In this document: positions 9,621 to 20,212 of the stretch, piece by piece
How positions within the stretch are numbered: the first letter of the stretch is position 1
How the letters are laid out: the number at the start of each line of letters is the position of its first letter
From: Billgrantia bachuensis
Lineage (GTDB): Bacteria > Pseudomonadota > Gammaproteobacteria > Pseudomonadales > Halomonadaceae
DNA: 64,000 bases
Direction of reading: 5' to 3'
NCBI RefSeq assembly: GCF_011742165.1
Contig: NZ_JAAQTO010000054.1
Span: 1 to 64,000, forward strand
Notes under the pieces: generated by a model
Told to the model about the DNA's origin: nothing
Seen by the model: the letters and a program-made list of their open reading frames with translations, nothing else
Databases searched by the model: none
Translations under genes and position numbers: made by a program

Positions 9621-10334
9621 TCAGCCAGGAGATGTCTGTGGCTCGTCGGGCGAATCCGGAAAGCGTACATGCAAGGCCTGAGCGGCCAACAGATGAGAGC
9701 GCATCACGTTTTCCGCCCAGGTGGAGCTACCGGCGCTAATCGCCTCCAGGATTTCGCGATGGTGGCGCATGCTGCGGCGCAGGTTGGCGAGATCGTAGTT
9801 GCCGAAGTTGCGCCGGATCACCGAGGTCCGCACCACACCGTCCAGCACCGCGGCCAGGCGCTGGTTGTCGCTCGCGGCGATCAGCTCGCGGTGGAACTCA
9901 TGATTGAGGAGGGCAATTTCGTTACGCACCTCCGGTTCACGCTCGATGCGCTCGACGAGTTCCTCCATGCGGCTGGCCAGTTCCTCGAGATGCGCCAGGT
10001 GTGTCCGATTCATGCGCTCGCTGGCAAGCCGTACGGCCATGGGCTCGAGTACCAGGCGCAGCTCGAAGACTTCGCGGGCGTCTCTCTCCGTCCAGGCCAC
10101 TACCCGCGCACCATGATGTGGAATCGCTTCCAGCCAGCCTTCGGAGACCAGCTCCCGCAGCGCCTCGCGCACCGGGGTACGGCTCACGCCGAGTTCGCGG
10201 GCGATGCTCGCCTCGCGAACGTATTCCTGGGCCCGGTAGTGACCGTCGAGAATCCGCTGCTTGATCACGTTGTGGACTTCAGCGGTAGCGGTTCTCGCTA
10301 TCCGGGGGAGTTCGGATATGGAGGGTTGATTCAT
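9621..10334 (-). CDS. GntR/FCD family transcriptional regulator
   Basis: This 237-residue regulator has an N-terminal winged helix (REASIARELGVSRTPVREALRELVSEGWL) and a C-terminal all-helical FCD effector domain. The FCD metal-ligand pattern is visible in HEFHRELI and MRHHREILEAI. It is the first gene of the leftward cluster and most likely senses the imported acid or its CoA derivative. ATG at 10334 is preferred: longer readings run through the palindromic operators, where the upstream ATGs belong to GCATGC. Regulation of its own promoter is indicated by the two palindromes just upstream. Confidence 0.9.
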   Translation of the reverse strand: MNQPSISELPRIARTATAEVHNVIKQRILDGHYRAQEYVREASIARELGVSRTPVREALRELVSEGWLEAIPHHGARVVAWTERDAREVFELRLVLEPMAVRLASERMNRTHLAHLEELASRMEELVERIEREPEVRNEIALLNHEFHRELIAASDNQRLAAVLDGVVRTSVIRRNFGNYDLANLRRSMRHHREILEAISAGSSTWAENVMRSHLLAAQALHVRFPDSPDEPQTSPG

Positions 10335-10348
10335 CGGTGTCTCAAAGA

Positions 10349-10423
10349 ATTGCATGCAATATGGACTATAGGTGCAGGTTCTCGTGGCTTCTAACTCGAC
10401 CTTGGTCGAAAATTGCATGCAAT
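10349..10423 (-). promoter_or_regulatory. Paired operator palindromes and promoter of the GntR-TRAP operon
   Basis: ATTGCATGCAAT occurs perfectly at 10349-10360 and again at 10412-10423, with centres 63 bp apart, six helical turns. Between them on the minus strand is TATAGT (10365-10370), a plausible -10 box that places the transcription start within the proximal palindrome. Palindromes of this size are typical for dimeric GntR proteins. The arrangement fits autorepression, possibly with looping or side-to-side contact. That the adjacent regulator binds here is inference. Confidence 0.7.
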
Positions 10424-10496
10424 GCGTTATACGATGCTCACCGGGCCGACCAAGTCTCCCAGGGGTTCACCTACGTAAGGAGTCACCTACGTTTTT

Positions 10497-10514
10497 TGTA
10501 GTGAATCTCTTACA
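10497..10514 (+). promoter_or_regulatory. GacA/UvrY-type upstream box of the first Csr-like RNA
   Basis: The 18-mer TGTAGT-GAATCT-CTTACA matches the known GacA upstream activating sequence TGTAAG-N6-CTTACA at ten of twelve defined positions. It is about 50-60 bp ahead of the first GGA-rich RNA. In gammaproteobacteria this box activates rsm/csr small RNA genes when GacA/UvrY is phosphorylated. Confidence 0.65.
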
Positions 10515-10559
10515 AGTCTTTCTAACTTGGGTTAACTCACGACTTCTCTTCCTATGCCA

Positions 10560-10706
10560 TGGTGTGGATATCGGGCATGGATAGCCCAACACGGAAGGCC
10601 GAGCGACGGAATGCTCATACCCAGGGATGCTTGGGCAGGAAGCCCAAGGTTGGTTGGATGGGAAGCGTCGACAGGAAGCCCGGCCCCAGTGGCCGGGCTT
10701 CTCTTT
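10560..10706 (+). ncRNA. CsrB/RsmZ-like CsrA-binding small RNA, copy 1
   Basis: The stretch contains eight GGA triplets (near 10579, 10593, 10608, 10625, 10638, 10656, 10661 and 10674), several placed in hairpin loops: GGGC-ATGGATA-GCCC (10573-10587), GAGC-GACGGAAT-GCTC (10601-10616) and CCCA-GGGATGCT-TGGG (10620-10635). It ends in a strong terminator. Arrays of loop-exposed GGA are the hallmark of CsrB, RsmY and RsmZ, which titrate the translational regulator CsrA/RsmA. The 5' end is estimated; no open frame here has coding character. The class was recognised by structure, not by database match. Confidence 0.75.
10675..10706 (+). terminator. Terminator of Csr-like RNA 1
   Basis: GAAGCCCGGCC (10675-10685) pairs with GGCCGGGCTTC (10691-10701) over a five-base loop, followed by TCTTTT. 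Confidence 0.85.
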
Positions 10707-11000
10707 TGGCAGGCTTGGTTTGACGCTGTGCCGACACTGTTTTTGTCGTCTTGAACGTTCGAAACGACAAGGCCCGTTGCGAGAGATGCCTGCTCTTGCG
10801 TTCTCTTCGGGTTCGCCAAAATATCGCATCTCATCGCACCTGACCCCGGCAGTTGGTCGGGGTCTCTGTTGTCTTGCTTGTCTACACGCACTGGAGCCGA
10901 GCCGCTCGGGGTTTCTGGATGCCGGCAATCAGCGAGCTCGGTATTCGCATTGCAAGGATAATAGCGTTAGAAAACTCATGCTGCCGTCGTAGGAGATTTA
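10707..11000. other. Spacer between the two small RNA genes
   Basis: No protein gene is supported here. Two hairpins are present: TTGTCGT/ACGACAA (10743-10770) and GACCCCG/CGGGGTC (10842-10864), the latter followed by TCTGTTG and possibly a weak terminator. Unlike its flanks, the stretch is poor in GGA triplets, so I see no third Csr-like RNA. Confidence 0.5.
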
Positions 11001-11011
11001 ACTACACCGCT

Positions 11012-11029
11012 TGTCAGCAATTTCCTACA
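11012..11029 (+). promoter_or_regulatory. GacA/UvrY-type upstream box of the second Csr-like RNA
   Basis: TGTCAG-CAATTT-CCTACA matches TGTAAG-N6-CTTACA at ten of twelve defined positions and sits inside a wider dyad, ACCGC and GCGGT at its two sides. A further imperfect palindrome, AACAGCAATTTGCTGC, follows at about 11049-11063. The 12-mer GCTTGTCAGCAA overlaps this box (11009-11020) and recurs at 11076-11087 next to the RNA start. The distance to the RNA is about 50-60 bp, as for copy 1. Confidence 0.65.
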
Positions 11030-11079
11030 GCGGTGCATATCCCACGTTAACAGCAATTTGCTGCACTACTGCCATGCTT

Positions 11080-11214
11080 GTCAGCAAGAGCAAGGAAGCT
11101 CCGCAAGGAAGCCGAGTCAGGACGACTCAACGACCATGGATACCCGGCCAGGATGACCGGGATAGGAGCAAGGAAGCATGAGTTAGCCCGGCCGCAAGGC
11201 CGGGCTCTTGCTTT
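11080..11214 (+). ncRNA. CsrB/RsmZ-like CsrA-binding small RNA, copy 2
   Basis: Seven GGA triplets occur within 90 bp. Clear hairpins present them in loops: GAGC-AAGGAA-GCTC (11088-11101), GAGTC-AGGAC-GACTC (11114-11128) and CCCGG-CCAGGATGA-CCGGG (11143-11161). The RNA ends at a strong terminator. This is the same architecture as copy 1, with little sequence identity, as is usual for paired RsmY/RsmZ or CsrB/CsrC RNAs. The 5' end is estimated from the first hairpin. The 270 bp that follow, up to the next gene, show no other feature. Confidence 0.78.
11185..11214 (+). terminator. Terminator of Csr-like RNA 2
   Basis: AGCCCGGCC (11185-11193) pairs with GGCCGGGCT (11198-11206) around GCAA, followed by CTTGCTTT. 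Confidence 0.85.
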
Positions 11215-11483: not shown

Positions 11484-13406
11484 ATGGGTGACGGGATGTC
11501 CAAATCTGACTGGCTGGTCAAGGCTCGTCGTTCCACATTCGCCGGGCTGTGGGCCGGCCTGTCGTCGGTTGCGTCTGCCTCCGCTGGAGCGGCCGTCATG
11601 CCTGCTGCTGGCTGGGGCGTGGTGCTGCTGGTCGTGGTGTCGGTTCTGGTCCTGGCAGGACTGGCCTATAGGCGCCGGCTTTTGAGCGATGTCGAAAGGT
11701 TGCGGGCCAGCCACGAAGAGCTGACGACCATCCTCGACAGCGTCGACGCCTGTATCTACGTCAAGTCGAGCGACTTTCGCTACCAGTATGTCAACCGCAA
11801 GGGCTGCGAGATCGTAGGCCTGCCGGCCGAGGCGGTCCTGGGCAAGACCGACAGTGATATCTTCGATTCGGTCACGGCAGCGGAGCTGCGCTTCAACGAC
11901 CGGCGAGTCATGGAGCAAGGCGAGAAAGTCGTGGTGGAAGAGGGATATGTGAAGGCCCAGGACGAGACCGCCTTCACCTTTCTGTCGATCAAGCTGCCGC
12001 TGCTCAGAGCCGATGGCTCGATTCGTGCGCTCTGTGGCATCTCCACCGACGTCACCGAATATCGCGATATCCAGGAGAGCAAGCATCGGCTGACGTTCTA
12101 CGATTCGTTGACGGGGCTGCCCAACCGGCGCCTGCTGCTCGATCGGTTGGAAATGGTGGTCAAGGGCACTCGTCGCTCAGAGCGCTATGCGGCCCTGCTG
12201 TTCATCGACCTGGACGACTTCAAGGTCGTCAACGAGACCCAGGGGTTGCAGCGGGGGGACCGTTTTCTGCGCCAGGTGGCACAGAAACTGGAAGAGGTAG
12301 TGCGCGAGAGCGATACCCTGGCGCGGCTGGGAGCCGATGAGTTCGTGCTGATGATTCACGACCTCGGCCTCGACGTGGAGCAGGCGGCTCATGCCGCTGA
12401 ACGCGTGGCCGAGAAGCTGTTGGGGCAGATTGCGAGTGCCCAGACCGATGACGACCAGGCGCTGACCCTGCCCATCTCGGCGAGTATCGGCATCTCCTTG
12501 TTTGCCAACGGCCAGGCGAACGTCGACAGTGCCATGCAACAGGCGGACATCGCCCTGCAGCAGGCCAAGGCCGCGGGCGGCAACACCCTACGCTTCTTCA
12601 ATGCCGACATGCAGGCCGACGTGATGGAGCGGGTGCATCTCGAGGCCGACCTGCATCAGGCGTTGGCGCGCGACGAGCTGCGCCTGCATTACCAGATCCA
12701 GGTGGACGATCACGCGAAAGTGACGGGCGTCGAGGCTTTGATACGCTGGGAACATCCGCGGCGTGGCTTGGTGTCTCCTGCGCTTTTCATTCCGCTCGCC
12801 GAGAAGAACCGGCTGATCCTGCCGATCGGCTACTGGGTGCTCGAGACCGCTTGCCGCCAATTGGCCGCATGGGCGCAGGAGAGCGGCAAGGAGAGACTGA
12901 CGATCGCCGTCAACGTCAGCTCGGTGCAGTTCCACCAGCCCGACTTCGTGGCCCGTGTCCAGCATACACTGGAAGGAACGGGCGCCAATCCTGGCCGGCT
13001 GGTGCTGGAAGTCACCGAGAGCCTGCTGATGGAGGAGCCGGAGCGTGTGCGCAACATCATGCTGCGCCTGAGCAAGCTCGGCATACGTTTTTCCCTGGAT
13101 GACTTCGGTACCGGCTATTCATCGCTGAACTACCTGAAGCGGCTCCCCTTGGATGAGCTCAAGATCGACAAGTCGTTCATCGATGGCGTGCTCGACGACC
13201 CGGTTGATGCCGCCATCGTCACCACCACCATCACCTTGGCGAACAGCTTGGGGCTCGAGGTCACGGCCGAGGGAGTCGAGACGGAGGCGCAGCACCGCTG
13301 GCTGCTGGAACATGGCTGCGAGGCCTTCCAGGGCTATCTGTTCGGCCGTCCGCTGGCCCTGGAAGAACTGGCATTGCCCGAGCAGGCTTGCTCCATTTCC
13401 TCCTGA
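11484..13406 (+). CDS. PAS-GGDEF-EAL protein with degenerate GGDEF (probable c-di-GMP phosphodiesterase)
   Basis: This 640-residue protein has one N-terminal membrane segment (about 38-60), a PAS domain (about 75-195), a GGDEF domain (about 205-370) and an EAL domain (about 385-630). The GGDEF signature reads LGADEF near residue 282, so cyclase activity is unlikely and the domain may only bind GTP. The EAL domain keeps its key motifs: VEALIRW, NVSSVQF, DDFGTGYSS and the late AEGVE. It should hydrolyse c-di-GMP to pGpG in response to a PAS signal. It lies directly after the Csr-like RNAs. An alternative start is ATG at 11496. Confidence 0.88.
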   Translation: MGDGMSKSDWLVKARRSTFAGLWAGLSSVASASAGAAVMPAAGWGVVLLVVVSVLVLAGLAYRRRLLSDVERLRASHEELTTILDSVDACIYVKSSDFRYQYVNRKGCEIVGLPAEAVLGKTDSDIFDSVTAAELRFNDRRVMEQGEKVVVEEGYVKAQDETAFTFLSIKLPLLRADGSIRALCGISTDVTEYRDIQESKHRLTFYDSLTGLPNRRLLLDRLEMVVKGTRRSERYAALLFIDLDDFKVVNETQGLQRGDRFLRQVAQKLEEVVRESDTLARLGADEFVLMIHDLGLDVEQAAHAAERVAEKLLGQIASAQTDDDQALTLPISASIGISLFANGQANVDSAMQQADIALQQAKAAGGNTLRFFNADMQADVMERVHLEADLHQALARDELRLHYQIQVDDHAKVTGVEALIRWEHPRRGLVSPALFIPLAEKNRLILPIGYWVLETACRQLAAWAQESGKERLTIAVNVSSVQFHQPDFVARVQHTLEGTGANPGRLVLEVTESLLMEEPERVRNIMLRLSKLGIRFSLDDFGTGYSSLNYLKRLPLDELKIDKSFIDGVLDDPVDAAIVTTTITLANSLGLEVTAEGVETEAQHRWLLEHGCEAFQGYLFGRPLALEELALPEQACSISS

Positions 13407-19108: not shown

Positions 19109-20212
19109 ATGTTGGAGCCATACATCCCCATCGAAGCCCTGGAAGTCTCGGCTTACGAGATTTCCACCGATGCGCCGGAGTCCGACGGCACGCTGCAGTG
19201 GGATTCCACCACCTTGGTGCTGGTCGAACTACGTGCGGCTGGCAAGAGCGGGCTCGGCTACACCTACGGGCACCGGGCCTGCGCCACGCTGATCCGCGAC
19301 AAGCTGGCCGGCATAATCGAAGGGCATGATGCACTTGCGGTGCGGGGAGGGTGGCTGAAGATGGTGGATGCGATCCGCAATTTCGGTCGGCCGGGAGTCA
19401 GCTCGATGGCGATCGCTGCCGTCGACGTGGCGATGTGGGATCTCAAGGCGCGCCTGCTCGATATTCCGCTGGTGACGCTGCTGGGCGCGGTACGTCAGGC
19501 AGTACCGGTGTATGGCAGCGGTGGTTTCACCTCCTATCCCCACGAGCGGCTTCAGGAGCAACTGTCCGGCTGGGTCGAAGCGGGCATGCGACGGGTCAAG
19601 ATGAAGATCGGTCGCCAGCCCGAATGCGACCTGGAGCGTATCCGCCTGGCACGCGAGGCGATCGGGCCCTTAGCCGAACTGTACGTCGATGCCAACGGGG
19701 CGTATGACCGCAAGCAGGCACTGGCCATGGCCGAAGCCTTCCACATCCATGGGGTCAGCTGGTATGAGGAGCCGGTAACCTCGGACGATTTGGCGGGGCT
19801 GCGTCTGCTGCGCGATCGCGCGCCTGCTGGGATAGAGATCTCTGCTGGCGAGTATGGCTATGACCTGCCTTATTTCCGGCGCATGCTCGAGGCTGAGGCA
19901 GTGGACGTGCTGCAGGCCGACCTGACGCGCTGCGCCGGAATTACCGGCTTCCTCGATGTCGCCGCGCTGTGCGAGGCCCACCAGCTTCCTCTCTCCTCCC
20001 ATACCGCACCGGCGCTGCATCTGCATCCCGCCTGCAGTACGGCGCCGCTACGTCATCTTGAATACTTCCACGATCACGCACGGATCGAAGCGATGCTGTT
20101 CGAGGGGGGCGTCGTTCCTGATGGCAAGGGAAACCTGCAACCGGACCTCACGCAGCCCGGCCTGGGGCTGAAGTTCAAGCACAAGGAGGCGGAGCGCTAC
20201 CGTTTGGGCTGA
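19109..20212 (+). CDS. Enolase-superfamily enzyme (mandelate racemase/muconate lactonizing type)
   Basis: This 367-residue protein has the enolase-superfamily capping domain and barrel. The KxK acid/base motif lies in RRVKMKIGR near residue 168. Metal ligands are expected in YVDANGAY, WYEEP and SAGEYGYD, and a histidine in SSHTAP could be the opposite base. This pattern fits acid-sugar dehydratases and racemases. The flanking oxidoreductases suggest it processes a sugar acid or hydroxy acid, but the reaction cannot be assigned. The start is ATG at 19109 behind GGAGAGGAGGAG. Confidence 0.85.
   Translation: MLEPYIPIEALEVSAYEISTDAPESDGTLQWDSTTLVLVELRAAGKSGLGYTYGHRACATLIRDKLAGIIEGHDALAVRGGWLKMVDAIRNFGRPGVSSMAIAAVDVAMWDLKARLLDIPLVTLLGAVRQAVPVYGSGGFTSYPHERLQEQLSGWVEAGMRRVKMKIGRQPECDLERIRLAREAIGPLAELYVDANGAYDRKQALAMAEAFHIHGVSWYEEPVTSDDLAGLRLLRDRAPAGIEISAGEYGYDLPYFRRMLEAEAVDVLQADLTRCAGITGFLDVAALCEAHQLPLSSHTAPALHLHPACSTAPLRHLEYFHDHARIEAMLFEGGVVPDGKGNLQPDLTQPGLGLKFKHKEAERYRLG

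Follow-up and report, generated by a model that had tools for sequence, protein, structure and literature searches.

Two Predicted CsrA-Sponge RNAs of Billgrantia bachuensis, Their Expanded Family and a Conserved Companion RNA

The Locus Between the GntR and EAL Genes

We analyzed a stretch of 64,000 nucleotides of Billgrantia bachuensis (contig NZ_JAAQTO010000054.1 of assembly GCF_011742165.1, positions 1 to 64,000), hereafter the window. The region of interest is bordered on the left by a minus-strand gene (9621-10418 at its longest) for a GntR/FCD-family regulator, in which PF00392 and PF07729 score over their cut-offs and whose closest relatives come from Billgrantia (88% in B. antri). On the right, a plus-strand gene (11484-13406) encodes a PAS-GGDEF-EAL protein with PF00990, PF00563, and PF08448 over cut-off. 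The interval of approximately 1.1 kb between the two genes holds no evident protein gene, in agreement with the initial annotation, which had read it as a tandem Csr/Rsm RNA locus, and no conserved protein frame was noticed in the two RNAs described below.

All features of the interval lie on the plus strand. The first predicted sponge RNA, RNA1, is preceded by a GacA-type box, TGTAGTGAATCTCTTACA (10497-10514), and the second, RNA2, by the box TGTCAGCAATTTCCTACA (11012-11029); as had been reported, both match TGTAAG-N6-CTTACA at 10 of the 12 fixed positions. Downstream of the RNA1 box lies a second promoter element, CTAACTTGGGTTAA (10522-10535), which has two mismatches to a palindrome of the RNA family, TTANCCNNGGNTAA, and stands at the distance usual in the family, its occurrence within the window being at chance level when taken alone. 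A putative -10-like motif, TGCCATGGT, follows at 10555-10563, and the same motif occupies the same place before RNA2 (TGCCATGCT, 11070-11078), where a palindrome-type element, ATATCCCACGTTAA, is found at 11037-11050. After each of the two boxes, the order is palindrome-like element, -10-like motif, GGA-rich stretch, and terminator. RNA1 (10570-10708, approximately 139 nt) and RNA2 (11085-11214, approximately 130 nt) would start near 10570 and 11085, respectively, and both boxes would thus be centered approximately 64 nt upstream (near -64). The strong terminators described earlier were recovered at 10673-10703 and 11184-11207. Sites with at most two mismatches to the box number three in the window (the third at 19140), compared with a mean of 0.47 in shuffled sequence, and 2 of 100 shuffles reach three.

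Between RNA1 and RNA2 lies a third conserved structured RNA, element E (10776-10867), which has a terminator of its own (stem at approximately 10842-10864) and was absent from the features listed initially. A strong hairpin between the RNA1 terminator and E (TTGTCGT...ACGACAA, 10743-10770) was not seen in the other E loci.

GGA Content, Folding, and Covariation

Each of the two RNAs carries eight GGA triplets, as had been counted for RNA1 and not seven, as had been counted for RNA2. Dinucleotide-shuffled RNA bodies contain on average 4.70 (RNA1) and 4.17 (RNA2) triplets, and since eight are reached by 7 and 2 of 200 shuffles, respectively, a single copy is modestly enriched in GGA. This would suit a GGA-rich intergenic region arisen by chance next to two ordinary terminators, a reading that we regard as exceedingly improbable given the homologues in other species and genera, the covariation, and the fixed promoter elements described below.

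Several GGA triplets had further been placed in hairpin loops. In the single minimum-energy folds, this applies to one triplet of RNA1 (equaled or exceeded by 131 of 200 shuffles) and two of RNA2 (30 of 200), so the individual folds agree with the statement in part only; when the genome's 13 candidate RNAs are pooled, however, 33 of 95 triplets lie in hairpin loops vs. 11.4 in shuffles. The fold of RNA2 has a z-score of -3.64. Across the family, the hairpins around GGA are well supported as being maintained by compensatory changes. In an alignment built without reference to structure (A1), base pairing holds for 95.0% of cells and both sides have changed in 11 of the 17 pairs; none of 500 shuffles reaches any of the five measures used. 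Partners slid against each other pair in at most 53.1%, a comparison that favors the actual structure, which was drawn from the same alignment. All 108 family members (see below) have 6-11 GGA each, GGA content having helped to choose the source loci of the model.

Comparison With Rfam

A search with Rfam models had been proposed as a check. At gathering thresholds and over all 4227 families, no Csr/Rsm family (CsrB, CsrC, RsmY, and others) matched in the window. At a lax threshold, RNA2 aligns with the full RsmZ model (PrrB_RsmZ, RF00166) at 22.5 bits (cut-off 44), and no Csr/Rsm family is among the matches listed for RNA1, a list from which one match of the same clan with a lower score was omitted. 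In relatives, RsmY (RF00195) reaches 28.8 and 23.7 bits, with a cut-off of 57. The RNAs of the window and of its relatives thus share GGA hairpins, a terminator, and a GacA-type box with PrrB/RsmZ and RsmY, yet score far under the curated cut-offs of these families.

Structured small RNAs might also have another main job, for instance base-pairing with mRNAs through GGA as an anti-Shine-Dalgarno-like or seed sequence, instead of titrating CsrA. The missing Rfam assignment at threshold and the few GGA in loops of single folds are compatible with this alternative, but GacA-type boxes at a fixed distance, GGA hairpins kept by covariation, and the weak yet full-length RsmZ likeness of RNA2 make it very unlikely.

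Copy Number in B. bachuensis and Its Relatives

DNA searches covered 151 genomes, the own genome included, drawn from the larger bacterial family. RNA2-like DNA was found in 12 and RNA1-like DNA in 14 of these. Combined, the searches point to seven places in the own genome: two on the window contig (C50), three on C66, and one each on C28 and C10. C66 holds an array of such RNAs, and similar arrays exist in the genomes G149, G111, and G147. Inside the C66 array, a candidate guanidine-II riboswitch (L092:15045-15094, minus strand; 31.3 bits, cut-off 32) precedes a frame that by eye resembles a small multidrug-resistance-type transporter.

From 80 first candidates, nine were removed as coding-like or as doubles, and 51 of the 71 kept entered a covariance model, R1. 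In the own genome, R1 gives ten matches of at least 64 bits: five on C66, two on C50, and one each on C28, C10, and C25. Nine of these belong to the training set and the C25 copy lies outside it. RNA1 (10565-10705) scores 118.2 bits and RNA2 (11080-11212) 107.5 bits, both as members of the training set. Two weaker matches, C44:70125 (32.4 bits) and C66:37495 (29.8 bits), were left out of the ten, as was an array RNA of another class that lies outside R1 and was recognized by eye (terminator at L092:13550-13579).

We then set the scores against 390 genomes of the order, using stricter filters. Matches listed outside the bacterial family score at most 36.1 bits, hence the working threshold of 40 bits. 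Since the best eight candidates per genome were scored in this search, the own genome counts at least eight there, and copy counts elsewhere are not to be read from it. In seven genomes chosen for many or strong matches, and hence not representing averages, R1 at 40 bits or more finds 17 (G122), 14 (G126), 12 (G114), 11 (G123), 9 (G014), 8 (G147), and 8 (G039) places, overlapping matches having been merged beforehand (two pairs in G122, one in G114). Sixteen of the 17 places in G122 are outside the training set, and all 17 stretches contain at least six GGA. Some G122 sponge RNAs (L230, L231, L232, L235) look longer, carrying additional hairpins and 8-10 GGA, and overlapping R1 matches were obtained for two of the longer-looking ones; sponge members may grow through added hairpins.

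At E≤0.01 and with the stricter filters, R1 matches at least 117 of the 151 sampled genomes, many at noise level. Within the own genus, the best match is strong (E<1e-20) in 10 of 24 genomes; another 6 show weak matches only, and 8 show none. The expansion is patchy even inside this genus, and the 14 genomes with weak or no matches may hold diverged RNAs that R1 misses. No match was found in plasmid records.

Promoter Elements Across the Family

R1 yielded 127 matches, of which 13 were dropped: 12 that scored under 40 bits, with partial and opposite-strand matches among them, and L109 (54.6 bits), which need not have been removed. After removal of doubles, 109 rows remained for a tree and 108 members for promoter counts. 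A GacA-type box with at most two mismatches precedes 37 of the 108 members, compared with 0.8 in shuffles. With distances taken from the first position of the box to the position 10 nt into the R1 match, 19 boxes lie at 76-83, 17 at 100-104, and one at 137, so that 36 of the 37 occupy two fixed distances. The palindrome TTANCCNNGGNTAA, which had been derived by reading many of these same loci, is present with at most one mismatch in 35 of 108 members (0.7 in shuffles), always at 51-56, and suggests a second regulator of the sponge genes.

A box with at most two mismatches is found in five of the ten own copies (both window RNAs, C28, C66:40291, and C66:39451), and it is free of mismatches at C28 and C66:40291. 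C66:38832 combines a perfect palindrome with a poor box (four mismatches), C66:38006 lacks the palindrome and its box has three mismatches, and at C10, C25, and C66:37737 both the palindrome and a good box are missing.

Box-like sites are not confined to these RNAs. The own genome contains 13 with at most one mismatch (three for a reversed control pattern), two of which could be placed upstream of an R1 copy. Two perfect GacA-type boxes, L241 (C24:60924) and L243 (C45:84113), have no GGA-rich RNA beside them. Boxes with at most one mismatch in the own genome (G000) at L246 (C5:178185), L252 (C33:9277), and L248 (C5:308816) lie 168, 118, and 82 nt before two VgrG-type genes (PF05954) and a PAAR gene (PF05488), so that type VI secretion genes might be direct targets of GacA. 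One-mismatch boxes at L245 (C5:27751) and L253 (C34:190728) are followed, after 36 and 55 nt, by long frames that by eye resemble a chemoreceptor and a sensor protein. Because the control pattern itself gives three sites, single sites may be due to chance.

Element E

E folds into a long stem and a terminator (z-score -2.95; none of 200 shuffles folds equally well). It matched no Rfam family at curated or lax thresholds. In the tree described below, E follows 13 of the 15 rows of the RNA1 class, the exceptions being G111:C9 and G023, and from these 13 sequences we built a second model, R2, which scores the window copy, a training set member, at 91.3 bits. At E≤0.01, R2 detects E in 14 of the 151 genomes. 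Its 15 matches with E<1e-8 comprise the 13 training places and two places in another genus (G014), and all 15 lie on the same strand as an R1 match, 32-70 nt downstream of its end. Weaker R2 matches (at most 34 bits) are uncertain, among them a match located between two sponge copies and another that precedes a sponge (G136). Covariation in the E stem is weak, with 4 of 21 pairs changed on both sides and 26 of 500 shuffles reaching the covariation score.

No shared promoter was found upstream of the E copies. Downstream of the 15 strong copies, no shared frame was seen, and the longest open frames vary in place and strand. A riboswitch-type leader was considered for E and tentatively set aside, since among the longest open frames no shared downstream frame was seen. 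Our guess is that E could be either an independent small RNA or a stable 3' product that arises together with the sponge. It presents a conserved RNA that lacks an Rfam match and has a fixed neighbor.

Classes and History of the Site

In the tree, RNA1 belongs to a class of 15 rows (support 100/99) and RNA2 to a class of 6 rows (support 99/94), each including other species. The tree rests on 137 columns for 109 rows, has 34 open forks, and its bootstrap had not settled. RNA1 and RNA2 are not recent copies of each other, as they fall into two classes, each of them supported and each represented in other species.

B. antri, B. lactosivorans, and G149 likewise have RNA2 between the GntR and EAL genes. 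The part of the window that contains RNA1 and E (10424-10972) is absent from B. antri and G149, and its place is occupied in B. lactosivorans by a zinc-type alcohol dehydrogenase gene. In G123 and G136, a gene related to this dehydrogenase comes after an RNA1-E unit, on the opposite strand, and G133 and G063 have another sponge and an RNA2-class sponge in tandem upstream of the EAL gene. From this pattern of presence and absence among relatives, sponge genes seem to be gained and lost at this site. A mobile cassette of RNA1 and E was considered and rejected: no flanking repeats of at least 11 nt were found within 10400-11010, and other genes have been gained or lost there as well.

The family might be real and RNA1 (or RNA2) a copy that is drifting and has hardly any activity of its own, or none at all, in line with the missing segment in B. 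antri and G149 and with window boxes that have two mismatches each, compared with none at C28 and C66:40291. Both RNAs, however, retain a box, a second element, a -10-like motif, eight GGA, and a strong terminator, and RNA2 is retained at the site in four species, so we consider this unlikely.

A sponge RNA lies directly upstream of the PAS-GGDEF-EAL gene in the window and in all seven relative loci with that gene (L002, L003, L036, L037, L095, L105, and L106, of which L002 and L037 are probably one place), a biased sample because these loci were fetched via the GntR gene or sponge RNAs. A link between c-di-GMP and Csr control is possible.

CsrA and GacA Partners

The own genome contains a single match to CsrA, a 66-aa frame in which PF02599 scores over its cut-off and which is close to solved CsrA/RsmA proteins (up to 106.7 bits). 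It also contains one GacA/UvrY orthologue (288.1 bits, cut-off 280), whose gene is followed by uvrC. Both partners had been named as a check on the locus. Together with the covariation and the fixed box spacing, they support the assignment to Csr/Rsm-type RNAs with GacA-type boxes. The initial annotation was sound in what it observed and mostly right in its interpretation.

A Proposed Many-Gene Titration Model

It is highly probable from the sequence comparisons that RNA1 and RNA2 both belong to a large Csr/Rsm-type family of small RNAs that titrate CsrA. If the RNAs are transcribed as predicted, phosphorylated GacA would bind the box approximately 64 nt upstream of each start and turn the RNA on, perhaps with a second factor at the palindrome. 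Each RNA of approximately 130-140 nt would present GGA in several small hairpins and capture CsrA dimers, whereupon mRNAs bound by CsrA would be released. Titration would be additive, with the dose split over at least ten genes whose promoters partly differ (box and palindrome, palindrome only, or neither), and several signals could thereby feed one CsrA pool.

Tentatively, we extend this reading to a broader one, which we hold possible rather than probable. In Billgrantia and some allied genera, Csr may have become a many-gene, many-promoter titration device, in which the richest genomes carry 8-17 sponge genes each. Some array members would have lost the GacA box and retained a second, palindromic operator for another regulator, and one sponge class would mostly be trailed by a co-made non-sponge RNA, E, which might tune sponge stability or act on targets of its own. 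That E follows 13 of 15 RNA1-class copies and that the expansion is seen in 10 of 24 genomes of the genus makes this broader reading slightly less likely.

Comparison With Known Systems

For Halomonas anticariensis, in which GacS/GacA has been linked to quorum sensing, exopolysaccharide, and biofilm, a review table of 2020 gives the decoy RNAs as "Unknown" (PMC7366521), and the available parts of three further papers do not name Halomonas decoy RNAs (PMC12889724, PMC13414033, PMC4465626). Within the CC-licensed PMC literature, we found no published account of the sponge expansion. The more far-reaching result is thus not the pair itself but the expansion of a family of sponges that goes unrecognized by Rfam and that comes with arrays, an additional promoter element, and E as a companion RNA. 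Candidates for decoy RNAs of Halomonas relatives and a model that detects them in several genera are now available. Moreover, one family with genomes of one or two, approximately ten, and up to 17 copies forms a natural dosage series, which would make it testable why bacteria retain several seemingly redundant sponges.

The tandem layout had been put forward as the special point of the locus, on the grounds that most genomes place the two RNAs apart. A tandem pair has already been published for Pseudomonas: in the passages available from PMC7911923, rsmX-1 and rsmX-2 of Pseudomonas brassicacearum are described as arranged in tandem, approximately 110 nt long, 75% alike, preceded by a GacA box, and GacA-dependent. 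In addition, genus g11 of the bacterial family includes at least four genomes (G144, G108, G010, and G148) with RNA pairs separated by 600-760 bp. As in the window, P. brassicacearum has two GacA-box RNAs in tandem; its pair is one duplicated gene, whereas the window pair represents two classes with E between them. Copy number, arrays, and the companion RNA E are the distinctive features, rather than tandem pairing.

Like CsrB and CsrC of Escherichia coli and CsrB1-4 of Vibrio tasmaniensis, the RNAs described here are GGA-rich and of a type that sequesters CsrA (PMC11882849, as far as its text was available). CsrB and CsrC concentrate many GGA in each molecule (22 and 14, respectively), and several species have two to four Csr RNA copies (PMC11882849), whereas the present family distributes 6-11 GGA per RNA over many genes. 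Larger decoy sets are known from Pseudomonas syringae, with up to seven Rsm RNAs (PMC7911923), and from Azotobacter vinelandii, with RsmZ1-7 and RsmY1-2 under GacS/GacA (PMC7366521). The nine decoy RNAs of A. vinelandii are the highest count that we found in print, as given in the accessible part of that review, and resemble the present family in the size of the set. B. bachuensis, in comparison, has ten copies at 40 bits or more and the relative G122 has 17 places, to which the arrays and element E are added.
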